Source: Pseudomonadota bacterium (GTDB taxonomy: Bacteria; Pseudomonadota; Alphaproteobacteria; Sphingomonadales; Sphingomonadaceae). From it: a stretch of DNA of 32,975 bases. The stretch is taken from assembly GCA_029781465.1 (NCBI GenBank), contig JAKOWQ010000185.1, positions 1-32,975 on the forward strand, read 5' to 3'. A program made the position numbers and the translations under genes. Positions 1 to 16,301 of this stretch are shown here, piece by piece; the stretch's first letter is position 1; each line of letters begins with the position of its first letter. The notes under the pieces are model-generated. The model saw nothing but the letters and a program-made list of their open reading frames with translations. It was not told where the DNA came from and did not search any database.

Positions 1-162
1 CGGCATTTTCGATCCCGCCAAAGGGTTTGTGTTTGCGCGAGGTCAACATGTCGCTAGCCTTCGCGGCATGGCCATTTCTGGCCGTCTATCCTTGGCATCC
101 AACTTGGGCGCCACATCTCATTGGAGCCGTGTCGCAGCGGCATGATCGATAGGGGCAAATAC

Positions 163-3100
163 ATGATGAACCGTCACAAGCGCGCGCTTTCGTGCGCGAC
201 AAGCCTGCGTGGTGCAGTGCTTGCCACCGCTTTGGTGGCCCTGGCCAGCCCGATGGCCGCCTTCGCGCAGGAAAGCGCGCCTGATTGTGTCGACGCGAAC
301 GGCGATGGCACCTGCGACAGCGCCGCGGATGGCACGATCGTCGTCACCGGCTCGCGCACCCGCCGCGACAATTTCGATACCCCCTCGCAGGTCAACGTGA
401 TCAACCGCGAAGACCAGATTCTTGCCGGTTCGACCTCGACCGCCGAAGTGCTGCAGGCTGCTTCGGTCACCTCGGGCACGTCACAGATCAACGGCTCGTT
501 CCTTGGCTTTGTGTCCGAAGGCGGCCCGGCGGCAAGCACGGTCGGTCTGCGCGGGCTTTCCTCCTCGCGTACACTGGTCCTGCTCAACGGACGCCGCCTG
601 GCCCCGGCCGGTGTCGGCCCGCAGCTGGTCGCGGCCGACCTCAACGTTCTGCCCTCGGCGGTGATCCGCCAGATCGAAGTGCTGCGCGAGGGCGCCTCGT
701 CGGTCTACGGTTCGGACGCTATCGCGGGCGTGATCAACGTCATCACCGAACCCAAGGTCGATGGTGTGACTTTCGACCTGTTCACCAACCAGCCGATCGA
801 GCACGGCGGCGGCGGGCGGAACTATCGCGGCTCGGTCGTGGCCGGCAAGGTCTGGGACCGCGGCCACATCACCGCCTCGTTCGAATACCGCGAACAGACC
901 GGCATGCGCGTGGGTGACCGCGATCTGTTTAGCTGCCCGCGTGACCTCTATTTCAGTCCGACCACCGGCCAGGAAGTCGGCGCGGTCGATCCGGCCACCG
1001 GCCAGCTGATGTGCTTCCCCTATACCACCAACGGTGGTTCGGGCATCGCCAGCGGGTACGGCATTTTCTTCAACTTCAACAACGGCCAATCGGGTCGTAT
1101 TACCTATGACAAGGATGGCACCACCCGTCTGGTCAACGGGCTGTTCCGCGTCGGGCCCAGCCCGCAGCAGCTGAAGGACCACGTTCTTTCGCCGGTGAAG
1201 ACCTATACCGGTTTCCTCAACGCCGCTTACGAGCTCGATGGTCTTGGCGACGCCGAAATCTACACCGAGGCGCTGTTCACCCGCCGTGAATCCCATCAGG
1301 ATTTCACCGGCCAGATCAGCATCAACCCGGTCAACCTCGATGGCGGCATCGAAGTGTATGGCGGCAGCTACGCCGGAACGCCCCTGTCGGATTATGGCTA
1401 TCCGACCAGCCCGTTCTTCCCGAATGCGCTCGCCAATCTGGGGATCAACTACTACACCCCGTTCATCGTCCCGGCCTATGAGCGTGAAAGCAAGCAGCGG
1501 GTCGATTTCCTGCGCTGGAACGGCGGTCTGCGCGGAAATCTTGGTTTCGGTGACTGGCGTTATGATGCAAACTTCCAGTATTCGCACACCAATTCGACCT
1601 CCTCGATCGACCAGACCACGCCCGAACGGCTGAGCAATGCGCTCGAAACCGTGCTGGCTCCGGCTGGAACCCCGAGCGAGCTGATCACCCACGCCACCAA
1701 CTATCAGGCCGGCAACGGAGCGGGCTACACCTGCGCCTCGAACGTCAACAGCTCGGGCCAGTTCATCGCCGGATCGACCTGCGTTCCGCTCAACATGTAC
1801 GACGTCGATATCCTGGTTGGCGGACAGATTCCGGCTGCGGTCTGGAACTACCTCTACCAGGCTGACGTGGGCCACACCAAGTTCGACCAGCTGACCGGGG
1901 CGATCAACCTGGACGGCACGCTGTTCGAACTGCCCTGGGGCAAGGTGCGCGCCGCGATCGGTTACGAGCATCGCTATGACAAGATCGTCGACACCCCGTC
2001 GATCGATGCCCAGAACAGCAATCTCTACAACTACAGCTCGGCCCAGATCACCCAGGGTTCGGACACGGTTGATGAGATCTACGGCGAATTGATCATTCCG
2101 CTGATGGCTGACAAGCCGCTGGTCAAGCTGCTCGAGCTCGACGTTTCGGGCCGCTACACCCACTATCGCTCGTATGGTTCGGACTTCACCTACCACTTCA
2201 ACGCACAGTGGGCGGTCAACGACTTCGTCCGGTTCCGCGCCAACTACGGAACCTCGTTCCGCGCGCCGAACCTGTATGAACAGTACGTCGCCGATCAGAC
2301 CGGATTTTACGGTTCGGCATCCGATCCGTGCTCAGGCTTCGGAACTGCCTACGCGCCGGGCGACAATGTCTATGACAACTGCCTTGCCGCGCTGACCCCG
2401 ATCCTTGGCGCCAATGCGGTCAACTACATCTCGACCGCCGGTCCGCAGGTCACGACCCGTGGCGGCGCCGGCTTCCTTTCGGCGGAAACCTCGCGTTCGT
2501 GGGGCGTGGGCGGCGTTCTGACCTTCCCGGTTGGTCCGGGCAACATCTCGTTCGCGACCGACTACTGGAACGTCAAGGTCAAGGGCGAAGTCACCACCCT
2601 TGGCACGCTGATCCTGCGGCGCTGCTATGAGGCAGATGATTTCCCCAACAACAATTACTGCGACCTGATTTCGGCTCGTCGCCCGGCGGGAGACCCCCAG
2701 CAAGGCACATTGTCGTCGTTCATCAACCCCTACCTCAACGTCTCGCAGCAGGCGGCGTCGGGGCTTGATTTCGACTTCCGTTATGCCACCCCGCTCGCCA
2801 ACGGCAAGCTGGTGGTGCGGGCTTCGGCCACGCGCAACATCCACCAGTACTACCAGCTGTTCGCGGACGATCCGGTCGATGATTACAACGGCACGTTGGG
2901 CGTCCAGGGCTTCGGCGCCGGTCCGAAGTGGGTCGGCAACCTCGAAATGCGATACACCTTCCCGGGTGACCGCGTGACCCTGCGTTATGGCGTTGATTAT
3001 GTCGGCAAGCAGGATTCCTCGCTGGGTTCGACCATCGGGGCGGCGTTCCTGGGCCAGGTCAATGTCGACCTGATCGCCGAGGAATACTGGAAGCACGGCA

Positions 3101-3297
3101 TCTCGCTGCAGTACAAGTGGCCCGATATCGGTCAGATCACCTTCGGTGTGAACAACCTGTTCGGGGCGACCCCGCCGGTGATCTCGTCGTGCCCGGTCTC
3201 GTCGTGCCAGTACACGCGCATCGGGAACGTGTTCAATTCGAGCAACTACGACATTCGCGGTCGTCAGGTGTTCCTGAACGTCACCCGTTCGTTCTGA
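163..3297 (+). CDS. TonB-dependent outer-membrane receptor (paralog 1)
   Basis: ORF with signal peptide (MMNRHKRALSCATSLRGAVLATALVALASPMAAFAQ), TonB box GTIVVTGSR, plug motifs (LRGLSSSRTLVLLNGRRLAP, SVYGSDAIAGVINVIT), C-terminal NNLFGATPP...RQVFLNVTRSF ending in Phe. Start moved from TTG 121 to ATG 163 (or 166), with AGGGG upstream, by comparison with the paralog at 5384. Confidence 0.95.
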   Translation: MMNRHKRALSCATSLRGAVLATALVALASPMAAFAQESAPDCVDANGDGTCDSAADGTIVVTGSRTRRDNFDTPSQVNVINREDQILAGSTSTAEVLQAASVTSGTSQINGSFLGFVSEGGPAASTVGLRGLSSSRTLVLLNGRRLAPAGVGPQLVAADLNVLPSAVIRQIEVLREGASSVYGSDAIAGVINVITEPKVDGVTFDLFTNQPIEHGGGGRNYRGSVVAGKVWDRGHITASFEYREQTGMRVGDRDLFSCPRDLYFSPTTGQEVGAVDPATGQLMCFPYTTNGGSGIASGYGIFFNFNNGQSGRITYDKDGTTRLVNGLFRVGPSPQQLKDHVLSPVKTYTGFLNAAYELDGLGDAEIYTEALFTRRESHQDFTGQISINPVNLDGGIEVYGGSYAGTPLSDYGYPTSPFFPNALANLGINYYTPFIVPAYERESKQRVDFLRWNGGLRGNLGFGDWRYDANFQYSHTNSTSSIDQTTPERLSNALETVLAPAGTPSELITHATNYQAGNGAGYTCASNVNSSGQFIAGSTCVPLNMYDVDILVGGQIPAAVWNYLYQADVGHTKFDQLTGAINLDGTLFELPWGKVRAAIGYEHRYDKIVDTPSIDAQNSNLYNYSSAQITQGSDTVDEIYGELIIPLMADKPLVKLLELDVSGRYTHYRSYGSDFTYHFNAQWAVNDFVRFRANYGTSFRAPNLYEQYVADQTGFYGSASDPCSGFGTAYAPGDNVYDNCLAALTPILGANAVNYISTAGPQVTTRGGAGFLSAETSRSWGVGGVLTFPVGPGNISFATDYWNVKVKGEVTTLGTLILRRCYEADDFPNNNYCDLISARRPAGDPQQGTLSSFINPYLNVSQQAASGLDFDFRYATPLANGKLVVRASATRNIHQYYQLFADDPVDDYNGTLGVQGFGAGPKWVGNLEMRYTFPGDRVTLRYGVDYVGKQDSSLGSTIGAAFLGQVNVDLIAEEYWKHGISLQYKWPDIGQITFGVNNLFGATPPVISSCPVSSCQYTRIGNVFNSSNYDIRGRQVFLNVTRSF

Positions 3298-3346
3298 TAG
3301 GCCGGGCCGCCCGGCAGGTCCGGGTGGCTCAAGGCGAACTGCAAGG

Positions 3347-3376
3347 GGGGCGGGACTACAAAGTCCCGCCCCTTTT
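3347..3376 (+). terminator. Rho-independent terminator after TBDR 1
   Basis: 11-bp perfect stem GGGGCGGGACT-ACAA-AGTCCCGCCCC followed by TTTTCGTT. Confidence 0.88.
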
Positions 3377-3408
3377 CGTTAGGGTCAAAAGATGGCCGGA
3401 GAATCCCC

Positions 3409-5124
3409 ATGACCAGTGCACAGGTTCCCGGGCCGATCGCGGCCCTGCGCGCCAGATCTGTAGCCTTGCGGGCCAGTGGCGACCTGGCCGGCGCTGAAGC
3501 AGCCGAGCTCGAAGCCATCGCCGCGGGGATCGAACGCCCCGAATTCCGCGCCGCCGAGGCGGCCTTTGACGATGGGAATCTCGAGCAGGCCGAAGTGCTG
3601 CTCCGTGCCCACCTGCGCAACGACCCGCTCGATCCTGCGGGCGCGCTGATGCTTGGCCAGATCGCGGCCAAGTGCGGCGCCGCGCGTGAGGCGACAAACC
3701 TGTTCATGCGGGCGATAAAGCTGGCGCCGGCCTATCTCGAGGCCCAACTCTCGCTCGCCAAGCACCACCGCGACCATGGCGAATACGACGCCGCGCTCGC
3801 CGCCGCACAAGTCATCCTCGCGCGCCAGCCCGATCACTTGCCCGCGCTATCGCTGCGCGCCTCGCTGTTTGAACAACTGCGCCGTTTCGAGGAAGCCGAC
3901 GCGGCATTCGAGGAACTGCACCGACGCCATCCCGGCGATGCCCGTGGCTGGGCCAACCACGCCTTCATGCTCAAGACCGTCGGGCGCCAGACCGATGCGA
4001 TCGACGCTTATCGCAAGGCTCTGGCACTCGATCCCGGACACGGGCACGCCTGGTGGGGCCTTTCCAACCTCAAGACCTACCGTTTCGATGCCGATGATAT
4101 CGCCGCAATGCGCCAGGCGCTTGCCGTTGACGATCTGTCCGGGGAAGCGCGCACCCACCTGTGGTTCGCGCTGGGCAAGGCGCTGGACGACACGGACCAG
4201 CCCGAGCAGGCCTTTGCCGCCTATTCGTCGGGGGCGGAGATCCGGCTTCGGGCGCATCCCTATGATCCGCAGAAGGTGCAGGATCACGTCTCGAAGTCGC
4301 AGCGTACCTGCACCAGCGCGTTCTTCGCGGCCCGCCAGGACTGGGGAAGCCAGGCGTCCGATCCGATCTTCATCGTCAGCCTGCCACGTTCGGGATCGAC
4401 GCTGATCGAGCAGATCCTGGCGAGCCATCCCGCTGTCGAAGGGACCGAAGAACTCAAGGATATCGAACGCATCGCGCTGTCGCTGGGGCCGAAAGGCGGC
4501 ACCGGGGCATGGCTCGATGCACTTGGCGAAATGGGCGCTGCCGATCTGGCCCGGCTGGGCGATCACTATGTCGAGGCGACGCGCCGGTTTCGCCATACCG
4601 ATCGCCCGCGCTTTACCGACAAGATGCCCAGCAACTGGGTCTATGCCGGGCTGATCCATTCAATCCTGCCCCGGGCCAAGATCGTCTCGGTGCGGCGCCA
4701 CCCGCTTGGCTGCGGCTTTGCCAACTATTCGCAGCACTTTAACTGGGGCATCAATTTTTCCTACGATCTGGAACACATCGGAGGATTCTATCGCGCCTTC
4801 GTGCGCCAGATGGCCCATTTCGATGCGGTGTTGCCTGGACGTGTACATCACGTGATCTACGAGGATCTGGTCCAGAATACCGAAAGCGAAGTGCGCCGCC
4901 TGCTCGATTACCTCGAATTGCCGTTCGATGAAGGATGCCTGCGCTTCTTTGAAACCAGCAGGCCGGTCTATACCCCCAGCTCGGAGCAGGTCCGCACTCC
5001 GATCAACAGCGAAGGCATGGAGCGCTGGAAGCGTTACGAGCCCTGGCTGGGGCCGCTAAAGCAGGCGCTGGGCGATGTGCTCGATTGCTATCCGCAAGTG
5101 CCGCCGGGAATCTCCTCGCAATGA
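3409..5124 (+). CDS. TPR-repeat sulfotransferase (N-terminal TPRs, C-terminal PAPS-dependent sulfotransferase domain)
   Basis: TPR-like helices (e.g. GRQTDAIDAYRKALALDPGHGHAWWGLSNL) followed by the P-loop/5'-PSB-like motif SLPRSGSTLIEQILASHPAVEGTEEL and a VSVRRHPLGCGFANYSQHF region typical of the sulfotransferase family. No signal peptide seen. Confidence 0.9.
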   Translation: MTSAQVPGPIAALRARSVALRASGDLAGAEAAELEAIAAGIERPEFRAAEAAFDDGNLEQAEVLLRAHLRNDPLDPAGALMLGQIAAKCGAAREATNLFMRAIKLAPAYLEAQLSLAKHHRDHGEYDAALAAAQVILARQPDHLPALSLRASLFEQLRRFEEADAAFEELHRRHPGDARGWANHAFMLKTVGRQTDAIDAYRKALALDPGHGHAWWGLSNLKTYRFDADDIAAMRQALAVDDLSGEARTHLWFALGKALDDTDQPEQAFAAYSSGAEIRLRAHPYDPQKVQDHVSKSQRTCTSAFFAARQDWGSQASDPIFIVSLPRSGSTLIEQILASHPAVEGTEELKDIERIALSLGPKGGTGAWLDALGEMGAADLARLGDHYVEATRRFRHTDRPRFTDKMPSNWVYAGLIHSILPRAKIVSVRRHPLGCGFANYSQHFNWGINFSYDLEHIGGFYRAFVRQMAHFDAVLPGRVHHVIYEDLVQNTESEVRRLLDYLELPFDEGCLRFFETSRPVYTPSSEQVRTPINSEGMERWKRYEPWLGPLKQALGDVLDCYPQVPPGISSQ

Positions 5125-5200
5125 TTCAGGCGGTCATTTGTCGACCTTTTCAAGTAACTTTAGTTATTTTCATTAGATAGCATAATATTGATGGCTCACT

Positions 5201-5221
5201 GTGATGTGAAAGCAACATCAC
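5201..5221. promoter_or_regulatory. Inverted repeat upstream of TBDR 2 (possible operator or leader hairpin)
   Basis: Perfect 7-bp arms GTGATGT-gaaagca-ACATCAC in an AT-rich intergenic region (5125-5383). Confidence 0.4.
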
Positions 5222-5383
5222 GGAATCAATTCGTTGCTCAACTGTAACAAGATATTGCAACCCGATACTTGTGATTTACCCCGGCACCATGACCCTTGCG
5301 GTCGGCTTCCGGTGCCGGGGCAAACTTGCCCGGAAGTTTCTTGAAAAGCCGCGGGTCGCGGCGAGTTTTTAGGGGCAAGAAAC

Positions 5384-8300
5384 ATGAACACCCAATTCAA
5401 GCGCGCGCTTTCGGGCGCGACCTGCCTGCGTGGGGCAGCTGTGGTTTCCGCGCTGGTTGCTCTCAGCAGCCCGGTGGCCGCATTCGCCCAGGATGCGCCG
5501 GCCGACTGCGTTGACGGCAGCGGCGCCGCCTGCGGCAAGGAAGCGACCATTGTCGTCACCGGCTCGCGCATTCGCCGCCCGGACAATTACAAGACCCCCG
5601 ATCCGGTTCAGGTCATCACCCGTGAGGAAACCACCCAGGCCGGCTTCAACTCGACCGCGGACGTGCTGCAGAGCACGTCGGTGACCAACGGCACCGCCCA
5701 GATCAACAACTCGTTCGGCGGCTTTGTCACTGCCGGCGGCCCCGGCGCGAACACCCTGTCGCTGCGTGGCTTCGGCGCGACCCGCACGCTGATCCTGCTC
5801 AACGGTCGCCGCGTCGCCCCGGCCGGTTCGCGCGGCTCGGTCGGTTCGGCCGACCTCAACGTGCTGCCCAGCGCGATGATCGACCACATCGAAGTGCTCA
5901 ACGGCGGCGCCTCGTCGATCTATGGTTCGGACGCGGTTGCGGGCGTGGTCAACATCATCACCCGCGACAAGGTCAAGGGCCTTCAGCTCGAAGCCCAGCT
6001 CAACGCGCCCGATAACGGCGCGGGCCTGGCCCAGCGCTATTCGGTGGTGTTCGGCTACAACACCGATCGCCTGCGCCTTTCGGGCTCGCTCGAATTCTAC
6101 GATCGCGGCGCGATGAAGGTCGGCGATGTCGACTGGACCCAGTGCCAGACCAGCTACCGCAAACTCAATGCCAGTTCGGCCCCCGGAACGGGCGACTTCA
6201 TCGACCCCAAGACCGGCCAGCCCAAGTGCTATCCCACCGGCAGCACCGGCGAAAGCGGCGTGACGATCAACACCATCGGCGTTCCCAACTTCGCCGGCAG
6301 CATCGTCGATCTCGCCGCCGGAATTCCCACCGGCTACGGTACGCTCCCGACTTCGGCCGGGTTTGGCGCTGCCCCGACCACGACCACGATCGGCGGCCCG
6401 GCCAACAACCAGCAGGTCTGCAACCGCTTCCGTCCGGATTCGACTGCTACCGGAGCGTTGCCGGGCTGGGAATGCGTTGGTGGCGGCGCCCTTTCGCTGG
6501 GCATCCGCGACACCTTCTCGCCCGCTATCCTCAACAACGACCTGATCTCGCCGGCGCGGGTCTACACCGGCTTCTTCCAGGGCGCCTACGATACGGGCGT
6601 ACTCGGCGATGCTCAGGTCTATGCCGAATTGCTGCTCAACCGGCGCGAATCCAGCCAGACGCAGAACCGCCAGTTCACCATCGACTATCCGTGGAAGAGC
6701 CCGCTGGTTCCCGCCAGCCTGACCTTCCCGGTCCGCTTCCTGCCGCCGCAGGCATCGAACCCGGGGGTCGACGTGGGCGTGCGCGTATTCGCGGACTACG
6801 GCAACTATGAAAACCGCCAGAAGGTCGATTTCATCAAGGCGACCGGCGGCCTGCGCGGCAGCCTCCCCGCCGATTGGCGCTATGACCTGACCTTCTCGAA
6901 GTCATGGTCGGATTCGGACTATACCAGCGACCTGATCCTCACCAACCGGCTCAACCAGAGCCTTGATGTGGTGGCTTCGGGCAGCGGCTTTGCCTGCCGC
7001 GACACCTCCAATGGGTGCATCGCCGCTCCGGCGCTGACCCCGGCGGTGGTTGGCGGGCAGTTCCCGGCAGACTGGTTCAACTGGGTAACCCAGCCGGTCA
7101 CCGGCCACACCGCCTACCGCGAATCGACCGTCAGCCTCGATCTCGATGGCAAGGTGTTCGATCTGCCCGGCGGTCCGGCCCAGGTCGCGCTTGGCTTCGA
7201 ATACCGCAAGTCGTCGATCGACGACACCCCGGCGCTCGACAGCCAGAACGGCAACCTCTACAACTTCACCTCGTCGTCGATCACCCGCGGGTCTGACTCG
7301 GTGTGGGAAGTCTATGGCGAAGCCGAGCTGCCGCTCGTTCGCGACACGCCGGGTATTGAGGACCTGACCTTTACGGTTTCGGGCCGCTACACCCACTACA
7401 AGTCGTACGGCGGGCAGTGGACCTACAAGTTCGGCGGCCGCTATGCCCCGATCACCTGGCTGGCCTTCCGCGGCAGCTACGGCACCTCGTACCGTGCTCC
7501 GGCGCTGTTCGAACAATACCTTGGCGCTACCAGCGGCTTCCAGTCCAGCGCTGGCGATCCGTGCAACAACCTGACTTCGGCTTCCAACCCGGTCCGTGTT
7601 GCCAACTGCGCCTCGGAAGGTATCGGCACGGGCTTCAGCGCCACCTCGAGCATCGCTGTGCTGCAAAAGGGCGGCGCGGCTTCGGGGCTCAAGGCTGAAA
7701 CCTCGAAGAACTGGACGATCGGCGCGGTGATCGAGCCTTCGCTCGGTGCCTTCGGCGATCTCTCGTTCTCGGCCGATTACTTCAACATCCTGGTTTCGAA
7801 CGGGGTTTCGCAGCTTGGCTATTCGACCATTCTGCAGCAGTGCTACGACGATCCGGACTTCCGGGCCGAAAGCATCTGCTCCTACGTCACCCGCAATTCG
7901 GCCGCGCCCTACAACCTGACCGTCGTCACCGGCTATGTGAACATCTCGACCGCCAAGGTTTCGGGCTATGACTTCACGATGCGCTATGCGGTGCCGGTCG
8001 GTCCGGGCAAGCTGACGATCAACGCGGACCTCACCAAGTTCGAAAACCGCTACAACCAGACCCTGCCGACCGATCCGGTTACCAACCTGATCGGCACGCT
8101 CAACAATCCGCGTTGGACCGGCACGCTTGATGTTCGCTACAAGATCAACCGGTGGGACTTCCGCTGGGGTCTTGACTGGATCCAGGGCACCAACAGCTCG
8201 GCCAGCTACCTGGGTCTGAGCCAGGCGACGCGTGACACCTACGTGTTCGAGGCGCCGGACTACTACCTGCACTCGGCCTCAGTGCGTTATCGCGGCGATC

Positions 8301-8455
8301 ACTACGGCATCACTGTCGGCGTGCGCAACCTGTTCGACCGGGAACCGCCGCAGATCTCGTCGGGTGCCTACAACCGCATTGGCAACTCCCCGCTCTACAG
8401 CGGTTACGATTTCGCCGGGCGGACCTTCTTCGTGAACCTTTCGGCCGCTTTCTGA
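5384..8455 (+). CDS. TonB-dependent outer-membrane receptor (paralog 2)
   Basis: Signal peptide MNTQFKRALSGATCLRGAAVVSALVALSSPVAAFAQ, TonB box ATIVVTGSRIRR, plug motifs LRGFGATRTLILLNGRRVAP and SIYGSDAVAGVVNIIT, C-terminal GRTFFVNLSAAF; RBS AGGGG upstream of the ATG. Confidence 0.96.
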   Translation: MNTQFKRALSGATCLRGAAVVSALVALSSPVAAFAQDAPADCVDGSGAACGKEATIVVTGSRIRRPDNYKTPDPVQVITREETTQAGFNSTADVLQSTSVTNGTAQINNSFGGFVTAGGPGANTLSLRGFGATRTLILLNGRRVAPAGSRGSVGSADLNVLPSAMIDHIEVLNGGASSIYGSDAVAGVVNIITRDKVKGLQLEAQLNAPDNGAGLAQRYSVVFGYNTDRLRLSGSLEFYDRGAMKVGDVDWTQCQTSYRKLNASSAPGTGDFIDPKTGQPKCYPTGSTGESGVTINTIGVPNFAGSIVDLAAGIPTGYGTLPTSAGFGAAPTTTTIGGPANNQQVCNRFRPDSTATGALPGWECVGGGALSLGIRDTFSPAILNNDLISPARVYTGFFQGAYDTGVLGDAQVYAELLLNRRESSQTQNRQFTIDYPWKSPLVPASLTFPVRFLPPQASNPGVDVGVRVFADYGNYENRQKVDFIKATGGLRGSLPADWRYDLTFSKSWSDSDYTSDLILTNRLNQSLDVVASGSGFACRDTSNGCIAAPALTPAVVGGQFPADWFNWVTQPVTGHTAYRESTVSLDLDGKVFDLPGGPAQVALGFEYRKSSIDDTPALDSQNGNLYNFTSSSITRGSDSVWEVYGEAELPLVRDTPGIEDLTFTVSGRYTHYKSYGGQWTYKFGGRYAPITWLAFRGSYGTSYRAPALFEQYLGATSGFQSSAGDPCNNLTSASNPVRVANCASEGIGTGFSATSSIAVLQKGGAASGLKAETSKNWTIGAVIEPSLGAFGDLSFSADYFNILVSNGVSQLGYSTILQQCYDDPDFRAESICSYVTRNSAAPYNLTVVTGYVNISTAKVSGYDFTMRYAVPVGPGKLTINADLTKFENRYNQTLPTDPVTNLIGTLNNPRWTGTLDVRYKINRWDFRWGLDWIQGTNSSASYLGLSQATRDTYVFEAPDYYLHSASVRYRGDHYGITVGVRNLFDREPPQISSGAYNRIGNSPLYSGYDFAGRTFFVNLSAAF

Positions 8456-13228: not shown

Positions 13229-14719
13229 ATGAGGTTTACCATGCACTGTTCCCGGCTTGCCCTGATTGCCGCGCTTGCCAGCCTTCCGGCGGGCGCCATC
13301 GCCCAGAACGCCCAGGGCGATGTGGCGGTAACGATCTACAACAACAACCAGGCGCTGGTGCAGGACGTGCGCCAGGTGAACCTGCCGGGCGGGCGGACCC
13401 GCCAGGAATTCCCCGACGTTTCGGCGCAGATCCGCCCCGAGACAGTCACGCTTTCGGGCGACGGGTTCGGGATCGTCGAGCAGAATTTCGATTACGATCT
13501 GCTCACTCCCTCGGCGCTGATGGAAAAGGCCGTGGGCCAGACCATTACTCTGGTACGCACCAACCCGGCGACCGGCGCCGAAACCCGCGAGCGCGCCCAG
13601 GTTCTGGCCGCCAACGGCGGAGTCGTGCTCAAGATCGGCGAGCGGATCGAGGTACTGCGCGACGATGGCCTGCCGGTACGGGTGGTGTTCGATTCGATCC
13701 CGCCCAACCTGCGTGCCCGCCCGACCCTGTCGGTCACGCTCGATTCGAGCCGCGCGGGTCCGCGTCCGCTGACCCTGTCCTATCTCACCCCCGGCCTTGG
13801 CTGGGGCGCGGACTATGTCACCCTGTTCGATGAGAAGGCGGGCAAGATCGACGTCCAGGGCTGGGTCACGCTGACCAACAACACCGGCACCACATTCAGC
13901 AACGCCAGGGTGCTGATGGTTGCCGGGCAAGTCGGCAATGTCGCGCAGCGCTATGGCGGTTATCGTCCCACCAAGCCCGCGCCGCGCGGCAACGTGGCGG
14001 GCAGCGAGAGCGGCGGCGACCAGCTGGGCGATTTCCACATCTACCCGATCGAGGGGCGCACCACGATCGCCAACGCCCAGACCAAGCAGGTCAGCTTCCT
14101 CAACGCCGAGGGTGTGCCCGCGCAGAAGACCTACGAATACCGCTCGAGCTGGCTCGAAAGCCAGAGCGAGGCGCAAAGCGCGGCCTCGATCCTCAAGTTC
14201 TCCAATGCCCGTGCCGGGGGGATCGGAGCGGCCCTGCCGGCGGGGACGGTGCGGGTCTACATGCGCGATTCCAAGGGCCAGGCCCAGTTCATCGGTGAGA
14301 GCCAGATCCCGCACACGCCCGGCGGTTCGCGGCTGGCGATCCGCACCGGCGATGCCTTCGACGTCAAGGTCCAGCCGGTGGTCGACAAGCGCGAGGTGAT
14401 CTCCAGCGACGAATGGGAGATGTATGCCCGCTGGAAGGTCACCTACCCCGACGGCACGGTGAAGGAGGGCTATTCCGAACGGCCCAAGAGCTACTGGCGC
14501 ACCCAGATGCGCTATGTCGTCACCAATGCCCGCAATGTGCCGGTGACGGTCGACGTGGTCCAGGCCGGGCTCGGCCAATGGTGGTGGTGGCGTGACCTCA
14601 GGGTGCCCGCCGAATCGATTCCCGGCAGCCAGGACGACGCCGATACCCGCCACTGGGAAGTGCCGGTGCCCGCCCAGGGCAAGACCGAGCTGACCGTCAC
14701 CTTCCTGACCCCGTGGTGA
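13229..14719 (+). CDS. DUF4139 domain-containing exported protein (1)
   Basis: Signal peptide MHCSRLALIAALASLPAGAIAQ; DUF4139-like features (VAVTIYNNNQALVQDVRQVNLPGG..., SYLTPGLGWGADYV, YPIEGRTTIANAQTKQVSFL, ARWKVTYPDGTVKEG..). ATG at 13229 or 13241. Confidence 0.85.
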   Translation: MRFTMHCSRLALIAALASLPAGAIAQNAQGDVAVTIYNNNQALVQDVRQVNLPGGRTRQEFPDVSAQIRPETVTLSGDGFGIVEQNFDYDLLTPSALMEKAVGQTITLVRTNPATGAETRERAQVLAANGGVVLKIGERIEVLRDDGLPVRVVFDSIPPNLRARPTLSVTLDSSRAGPRPLTLSYLTPGLGWGADYVTLFDEKAGKIDVQGWVTLTNNTGTTFSNARVLMVAGQVGNVAQRYGGYRPTKPAPRGNVAGSESGGDQLGDFHIYPIEGRTTIANAQTKQVSFLNAEGVPAQKTYEYRSSWLESQSEAQSAASILKFSNARAGGIGAALPAGTVRVYMRDSKGQAQFIGESQIPHTPGGSRLAIRTGDAFDVKVQPVVDKREVISSDEWEMYARWKVTYPDGTVKEGYSERPKSYWRTQMRYVVTNARNVPVTVDVVQAGLGQWWWWRDLRVPAESIPGSQDDADTRHWEVPVPAQGKTELTVTFLTPW

Positions 14720-14729
14720 GGACCGCCCG

Positions 14730-16301
14730 GTGCGGCAGCTGATCGCCCTTGCATTGGCCTTGGCCCCGGCCCCGGCGCTGGCTCAGACCGCGCCGGTGAC
14801 TTCGGCCGGGCCGGACAAGGTGGCGGTGACCTTTTACCGCGATCCCTATCGCGGCAACGGCGAGATCGACCGTTTCAGCCCCGGCTCCTTCGCGCTGATC
14901 GTCGAGACCCGCACGGTCGACCTTCCCCCGGGCGAGGCGGTGGTACGCTTTGAAGGCGTGGCGGGCGGGATCGTGCCCAAGACCGCGATCCTGTTTGGCC
15001 CCTCCCCGCGCGAGCGCAACCGCGAGGCGGCGCTGCTTTCGCAAAAGGGACTGGTCGATGGATTCACCGGCCAGGCGGTGATCCTGCGCCGAACCGATCC
15101 CGCCACCGGCAAGGTGAGCGAGGAACGCGCAACGATCCGCTCCGCCGCCGACCGGCTGGTGGTGACCACCCCGCGCGGGGTGGAGGCGCTATATTGCAGC
15201 GGGCTCAACCAGACGCTGATCTACCCCGGCGTTCCGGCCGAGCTCTCGGCAAAGCCGGTGCTGACCATGACCACCAAGGACCAGCCGGGCGGACGGGCCA
15301 CGATCACGCTGGCCTATATCGCCACCGGGTTCGACTGGGATGCGACCTATGTCGGCACCCTGGGCGACGACGGCAAATCGTTGCAACTGCTGGCCTGGCT
15401 GACCATGGCCAGCGCGGATGAGACCAGCTTCCTCGATGCCCAGACCAACGCCGTCGCCGGGCGGATCAACCGCAGCGAGGATACCCGCGACGATACCGGC
15501 CAGTGGGCGCGCGCGGCGGCATCCTATCTCGACAAGTGGAGCGATTGCTGGCCCGCCGGGACCACCACCAGCGATCTCGGTTCCGGTGTGCCCCCGCCGC
15601 CGCCGCCACCGGCGCCCGCGCCGATGGCTGTGTCCTTCGAGAGCGCCGATATTGTCGTCACCGGGCAGCGGGTGCAGTCAAAGGCAATGGCGGCCCCGGT
15701 TGCCGTCACCGCGGTCTCGGAATCGCTGGGCGATCTCAAGCTCTATCGCATACCGGTGCCGGTCACCGTCGCCGCACGCAGTCAGAAGCAGGTCGCCTTC
15801 CTCAGCGCCGACAAGGTCCGGGGCGAGCTGGTCTATCGTTCGCAGGTCTGGCAGGATCCGGAGAGTCCGGAAATGCTGTTCCGCTTCCGCAACCGCAAGA
15901 GCGAGGGGCTGGGCGATCCGCTCCCGGCGGGCAAGGTCGTGCTCTATCAGGACAGCAAGTTCGGTCGCGCGCTGGTGGGCGAGAGCACCCTGCGCGACAA
16001 GACCACAGACGAGGAAGTGGAGATCGCCTTCGGCGAACCCAGCGGGGTAACGATCGACAGCAGCGACACGCTCGACGCCAAGAAGCGCTGGACCACGGTG
16101 ACCAGCACGATCCGTAACGCCAACCCCTTTGCGGTGCGCTTCGAGATCGAGTTCCCGACCGGCAACGGCTACGTCTATCGCGGCCTGCCCGGCAAGCTGG
16201 TGAGCAAGCCGGGCAAGAGAATCTGGGCAACAACGCTTGCGCCCGGCAGCGAGACCCGGTTCAGCTACCGCGTCGCCGAGGTCGAGGACGCGGCAGAATA
16301 G
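14730..16301 (+). CDS. DUF4139 domain-containing exported protein (2) with Pro-rich linker and TonB-box-like motif
   Basis: GTG start; signal peptide MRQLIALALALAPAPALAQ; paralogous to the upstream gene (ITLAYIATGFDWDATYVGTL, LKLYRIPVPVTVAARSQKQVAFLSADK); contains PPPPPPPAPAPMAVSFESADIVVTGQR. Confidence 0.85.
   Translation: MRQLIALALALAPAPALAQTAPVTSAGPDKVAVTFYRDPYRGNGEIDRFSPGSFALIVETRTVDLPPGEAVVRFEGVAGGIVPKTAILFGPSPRERNREAALLSQKGLVDGFTGQAVILRRTDPATGKVSEERATIRSAADRLVVTTPRGVEALYCSGLNQTLIYPGVPAELSAKPVLTMTTKDQPGGRATITLAYIATGFDWDATYVGTLGDDGKSLQLLAWLTMASADETSFLDAQTNAVAGRINRSEDTRDDTGQWARAAASYLDKWSDCWPAGTTTSDLGSGVPPPPPPPAPAPMAVSFESADIVVTGQRVQSKAMAAPVAVTAVSESLGDLKLYRIPVPVTVAARSQKQVAFLSADKVRGELVYRSQVWQDPESPEMLFRFRNRKSEGLGDPLPAGKVVLYQDSKFGRALVGESTLRDKTTDEEVEIAFGEPSGVTIDSSDTLDAKKRWTTVTSTIRNANPFAVRFEIEFPTGNGYVYRGLPGKLVSKPGKRIWATTLAPGSETRFSYRVAEVEDAAE

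Follow-up and report, generated by a model that had tools for sequence, protein, structure and literature searches.

We found that the second of two tandem DUF4139-like proteins encoded in the window (the whole stretch of 32,975 nucleotides analysed here, from a member of the Sphingomonadaceae) carries, within an internal loop predicted to be disordered, a motif that in sequence terms is well supported as a TonB box. This protein, which we call B, is predicted to be a soluble periplasmic non-receptor, its location being assigned from the signal peptide alone. The features discussed below are collected in Table 1.

The translation of B includes SGVPPPPPPPAPAPMAVSFESADIVVTGQRVQSK, a linker stretch holding a poly-proline run followed by DIVVTGQR, exactly where the sequence-only reading of this DNA had located them. 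In the AlphaFold2 model (45 sequences, mean pLDDT 75), B is a two-part β protein, and the pLDDT drops below 50 over mature residues 228–305, between the two folded parts. The box occupies mature residues 288–295 within this segment, which is not docked onto the rest of the model; in the model, the motif thus escapes burial in a folded domain, an outcome that had been named beforehand as speaking against it. C137 and C254, both invariant in B, are a possible disulfide pair, perhaps clamping the base of the loop. Among the PDB fold matches listed for the B model, all of low TM-score, the top ones are OST1/ribophorin-like subunits (E 1e-4, TM about 0.14), and this likeness probably reflects generic β similarity. 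A Pfam search of the protein returned no match, and hence neither the Plug (PF07715) nor the barrel (PF00593) of a TonB-dependent receptor (TBDR), in agreement with the earlier view that the remainder of B is not a TBDR. The DUF4139 label proposed in that reading stands at the superfamily level only. B matches the MuiA model TIGR02231 below threshold (E 0.006, 15.3 bits against a cutoff of 112.6) and upstream paralog A reaches 19.7 bits against DUF4139 in Pfam, under the 31.8 cutoff; membership of B in DUF4139 (PF13598) or MuiA therefore fails the curated cut-offs.

Table 1. Positions of the features discussed (window coordinates, except in the last line)
Feature	Position	Strand	Basis or remark
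TonB box TIVVTGSR of TBDR 1 (ORF 121-3297), reference	334..357	+	sequence, Pfam
TonB box TIVVTGSR of TBDR 2 (ORF 5384-8455), reference	5546..5569	+	sequence, Pfam
Paralog A, DUF4139-like, short linker, no TonB box	13241..14719	+	Pfam, homology to B
B, DUF4139/MuiA-like exported protein, motif host	14730..16301	+	523 aa, GTG start
Predicted Sec signal peptide of B, VRQLIALALALAPAPALA followed by Q, no lipobox	14730..14786	+	inferred from translation
Cys codon, mature C137, invariant in B	15195..15197	+	invariant alignment columns
Disordered linker joining the two folded parts of B, mature residues 228-305	15468..15701	+	AlphaFold2 pLDDT < 50
Cys codon, mature C254 (...CWP at linker start), invariant in B	15546..15548	+	invariant alignment columns
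Pro-rich run PPPPPPPAPAP in B linker	15591..15623	+	from sequence
TonB-box-like motif DIVVTGQR in B	15648..15671	+	sequence; kept in orthologs
PVAVTA in B, like the first TBDR plug strand after the TonB box	15696..15713	+	ortholog-tail pattern, BLASTP of L037
L252, YfbK-like vWA lipoprotein	1577-3322 (G200:C1:2319076-2320821)		B profile search; relatives L256-L299

Paralog A is clearly homologous to B (pairwise comparison, E 9.6e-25). At the place equivalent to the B linker it has only ...RPTKPAPRGNVAGSESGGDQLGDFHIYPI, in keeping with the short linker ascribed to it earlier, and a scan of the equivalent 70 residues found the motif in 0 of 87 A paralogs, which rules out the box as a feature common to both. 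In the loci that we read, no further conservation of the gene neighbourhood was seen around the A–B tandem.

Homologs of B are present in 165 of the 301 genomes of the family Sphingomonadaceae, and a further search located them in named species, among these Sphingobium quisquiliarum, S. fuliginis, Sphingomonas kyeonggiensis, and Novosphingobium lentum; the S. fuliginis ortholog (L040) reads EDIVVTAQRR at the box. About half of the family genomes gave no B match, so the function of B is dispensable. Lack of conservation among orthologs had been named beforehand as an outcome that would speak against the motif. The linker could be delimited in 101 distinct B orthologs, and 92 of these linkers match the pattern [ILVMF][ILVMT][VLI][TS][GAS]x[RKNM], against a mean of 0.30 and a maximum of 3 when they were shuffled 500 times; a slightly wider pattern recovered the motif in 100 of 104 B proteins. 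Mean identity between random pairs of orthologs is 59% over the motif 8-mer, a value somewhat inflated since the rows were chosen by pattern, compared with 15% in the eight residues before it, 12% in the eight after it, and 45% in the folded core. Conservation peaks at V (97%) and T (96%), residues 310 and 311 in the full translation of B. The poly-proline follows the box instead of preceding it in orthologs L126, L128, L131, L138, L149, and L153, and these swaps of order indicate that the box is maintained as an independent short linear motif. The box is absent from a few B proteins, such as L120, L236, and one of the two tandem copies at L121. The L121 locus (G257:C1), with one boxed and one boxless copy in a single genome, offers a natural comparison pair.

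Both TBDRs of the window are receptors by Pfam, having Plug and barrel, and TIVVTGSR lies at their mature N-termini just past the signal peptide; the near-identity of DIVVTGQR to this string had been remarked upon earlier. The two receptor genes (121-8455) also sandwich a TPR-sulfotransferase gene (3409-5124). Thirty receptor N-termini from three sphingomonad genomes were scored with a position matrix built from the B motifs, which located the TonB box in 22 of them above the 99th percentile of shuffled N-termini; the other receptors have more divergent boxes. Pfam and NCBIfam searches with the short B linker peptides gave no match apart from one linker (L129) that weakly matches the start of Plug (E 0.023), so the plug similarity was followed through pairwise BLASTP and the matrix test in addition to this weak match. 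Ortholog L037 shares 21 of 35 residues with a receptor N-terminus by BLASTP; the pairs of B or vWA proteins with receptors were hand-picked, and their E-values are thus post hoc. The receptor-like similarity extends past the box into ...PIAVTAVS in roughly one B protein out of three, and the pattern P[ILVA][AST][VIM].. follows the box in 31 of 100 B tails versus 0.2 in shuffles.

A precedent for the two best conserved positions comes from the DdvT receptor of Sphingobium SYK-6, where the box reads IIVT at residues 40–43. The V42A and T43A mutants show reduced growth, and the double mutant does no better than a null in growth, conversion, or uptake (PMC6874591). The top-conserved V and T of B correspond to these two residues. 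Hydrophobic-x-V-T, the conserved V and T, and an exported segment predicted to be disordered, the features by which a TonB box is recognised, are all found in B.

The history of the box was traced in a tree of A and B built from the folded parts with the linker removed. No A falls within B, which is monophyletic in this tree with support 0.98. The most basal B, L120, has a Pro/Ala-rich stretch and no box, and 104 of the 111 B proteins carry the box. We conclude that the box probably arose once A and B had separated by duplication and was then retained, with rare losses; several independent gains at the base of the B tree are an alternative. Outside the family Sphingomonadaceae, L094 and L095 have the box and L236 is without it.

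The sequence-only reading had also raised the possibility of a module shared among exported proteins, and a second family bears this out. Lipoprotein L252, with vWA and YfbK_C domains, was recovered by the B profile through its poly-proline and box stretch alone, and among its sphingomonad YfbK-like vWA relatives the motif occurs in 30 of 45 N-terminal stretches versus 0.15 in shuffles. Certain of these lipoproteins have two boxes. Two of them, L270 and L275, run on into the receptor plug, L275 with 32 of 48 identities to a receptor in a hand-picked BLASTP pair (67% over 48 aa), which shows that the cassette came from receptors. Some B and vWA proteins keep the box alone, without the part that follows it. 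The full motif is missing in vWA members L300-L305 and in plasmid-borne homologs of Rhizobium, Azotobacter, and Nostoc. Signal peptides place both the B and the vWA families outside the cytoplasm. Cassettes from receptor N-termini have thus been grafted onto unrelated envelope proteins in sphingomonads. Three genomes were scanned with a strict pattern and 30 of the matches were read; besides B and vWA proteins, the in-frame exported ones were receptors, the folded amidohydrolase-like protein L166, and L181; a reversed control pattern gave 2–6 matches per strand in these genomes. L181 (1396-2262; G027:C1:1555395-1556261), considered as a third host, is a small exported non-receptor with EDIVVTGERP at its N-terminus, but its family proved to be rare.

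We propose that the box was taken from the N-termini of TonB-dependent receptors and has been maintained in the flexible, proline-rich loop of B, where it would pair as a β-strand with the TonB C-terminal domain, like the receptor boxes, and so bring B to TonB. Such binding, one of the roles put forward in the sequence-only reading, seems likely. Strand addition is the way in which TonB as well as TolA binds its outer-membrane partners, with the added strand supplied by a disordered segment; TonB boxes in the free state, like the N-terminus of TolB, are without order and become folded in this manner (PMC12905483). TolB is itself a soluble periplasmic partner (PMC12927319). The host genome encodes a TonB with adjoining ExbB/ExbD-like ORFs and further TonB_C proteins (TonB C-terminal domains at L058-L061). 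Hence, the known strand addition by TonB and TolA, the soluble nature of TolB, and the TonB and ExbB/ExbD-like ORFs of the genome all favour recruitment of TonB to B. TonB driven by ExbB/ExbD would then pull on the loop, and B would change shape or be released from a partner, with its tandem neighbour A as the leading candidate. This force-coupled role, in which TonB would act on B as a Ton counterpart of TolA acting on TolB, is a tentative suggestion by analogy that may well prove wrong. The internal rather than N-terminal position counts against a TonB box in B, as do the boxless B proteins and the family genomes with no B match; receptors with an N-terminal signalling domain also have an internal TonB box.

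The main rival to TonB recruitment with force coupling is a passive use of the box as a decoy or brake, which would occupy TonB and tune the receptors with no force exerted on B; competition for TonB had likewise been suggested in the sequence-only reading. It fits the same sequence evidence, and Tuckman and Osburne are said to have found in 1992 that a TonB-box pentapeptide inhibits TonB-dependent processes in vivo. However, a brake of this kind would require abundance and would have no need for a conserved two-part fold around the loop, and a role in structure is suggested by the invariant cysteine at the loop base and by the conservation of the tandem with A. We regard a passive tether or brake as the lesser alternative to force coupling, and as an unlikely account of the box. 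More unlikely still is a partner other than TonB, such as an assembly or export chaperone or a protease that handles receptor N-termini, or strand pairing with A. The evidence for a TonB partner is one of sequence, which leaves room for such a factor, and in roughly one B protein out of three the receptor likeness reaches as far as the first plug strand, more than is needed for TonB binding alone. Yet the post-box part is often absent, the positions kept best are the V and T that are essential in a sphingomonad receptor box, and AlphaFold2 leaves the segment undocked on B. The clear receptor-derived segments in relatives, especially in the vWA lipoproteins, would also suit a functionless remnant of recombination with receptor genes, but retention of the box in so large a share of the B tree, while the surrounding linker fell to background identity, makes this very improbable. 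A chance match in a valine-rich strand can be dismissed, as similar strings do occur at background rate in other frames and in folded proteins, but 92 motifs were observed where 0.3 were expected and paralog A has none.

We compared B with several known systems. Like the receptor boxes of DdvT and the window TBDRs, the B motif reads [DE]-I-V/I-V-T-G/A-x-R, is disordered, and has an acidic or Pro/Ala-rich lead-in, and a PIAVTAV plug strand often follows it as in TBDRs; unlike TBDRs, B has neither plug nor barrel, being a soluble β protein of two parts that holds the box in an internal loop. The pairing of TolB with TolA is similar in that B is predicted to be a soluble periplasmic protein whose disordered segment would pair with an ExbB/D-type force transducer through the C-terminal domain of the latter (PMC12905483), whereas the TolB segment is N-terminal and binds TolA, and B is non-homologous. 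TolB is marked by its TolA-binding N-terminal segment, a Rossmann-like domain, and a propeller of six blades. No TolB match to B was found in Pfam or among the PDB fold matches listed, the model being β-rich with an internal loop, and the likeness would thus be one of working manner only. The bacteriocins PyoS2 and KlebC, likewise non-receptors, bear their TonB box on an N-terminal segment that is disordered or detachable (PMC12927319), but they are toxins that are secreted and then taken up by a target cell, whereas B is a chromosomal, housekeeping-type exported protein. Pfam finds no cytotoxic domain in B, and the locus is a conserved tandem of paralogs, not a toxin–immunity pair. Sub-threshold profile matches and paralogy link B to MuiA/DUF4139 (TIGR02231, PF13598), from which it differs in lying under the cut-offs, with the long loop and box confined to B. 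The YfbK-like vWA lipoproteins (PF12034/PF12450) share the same poly-proline and TonB-box cassette in their N-terminal stretch, but their domains are unrelated, they usually have a lipid anchor, and the box lies between anchor and vWA domain. Finally, the organophosphate hydrolase of Sphingobium fuliginis is a non-receptor physically associated with TonB/ExbB/ExbD; it differs from B in being an unrelated enzyme, for which the passage on this association reports no TonB box (PMC7142613).

An earlier description of a TonB box in such non-receptor proteins was not found in the literature searched, outside which most subscription papers fell. In a recent survey of force transducers the term "TonB box" does not occur, and YfbK is mentioned solely as a free periplasmic protein (PMC12204202). 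The same literature holds almost nothing on DUF4139, its occurrences being unrelated by title and abstract.

TonB is usually viewed as serving outer-membrane receptors, with TolA/TolB-Pal as a separate envelope system. The presence of the cassette in the vWA lipoproteins as well makes B one of a class and not a single oddity, and it is a warning that scans for TonB boxes do not equal receptor counts. Mutating just two residues of a short loop would give a directly testable way into a protein family on which hardly anything has been published. Sphingomonads have very many TonB-dependent receptors, and it is quite possible, if somewhat short of probable, that they have spread receptor TonB boxes to at least two unrelated envelope families, so that the Ton motor would work on soluble and lipid-anchored clients as a counterpart of Tol-Pal. 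A conserved chromosomal family of non-receptors with a TonB box would in itself enlarge the client list of the Ton motor.
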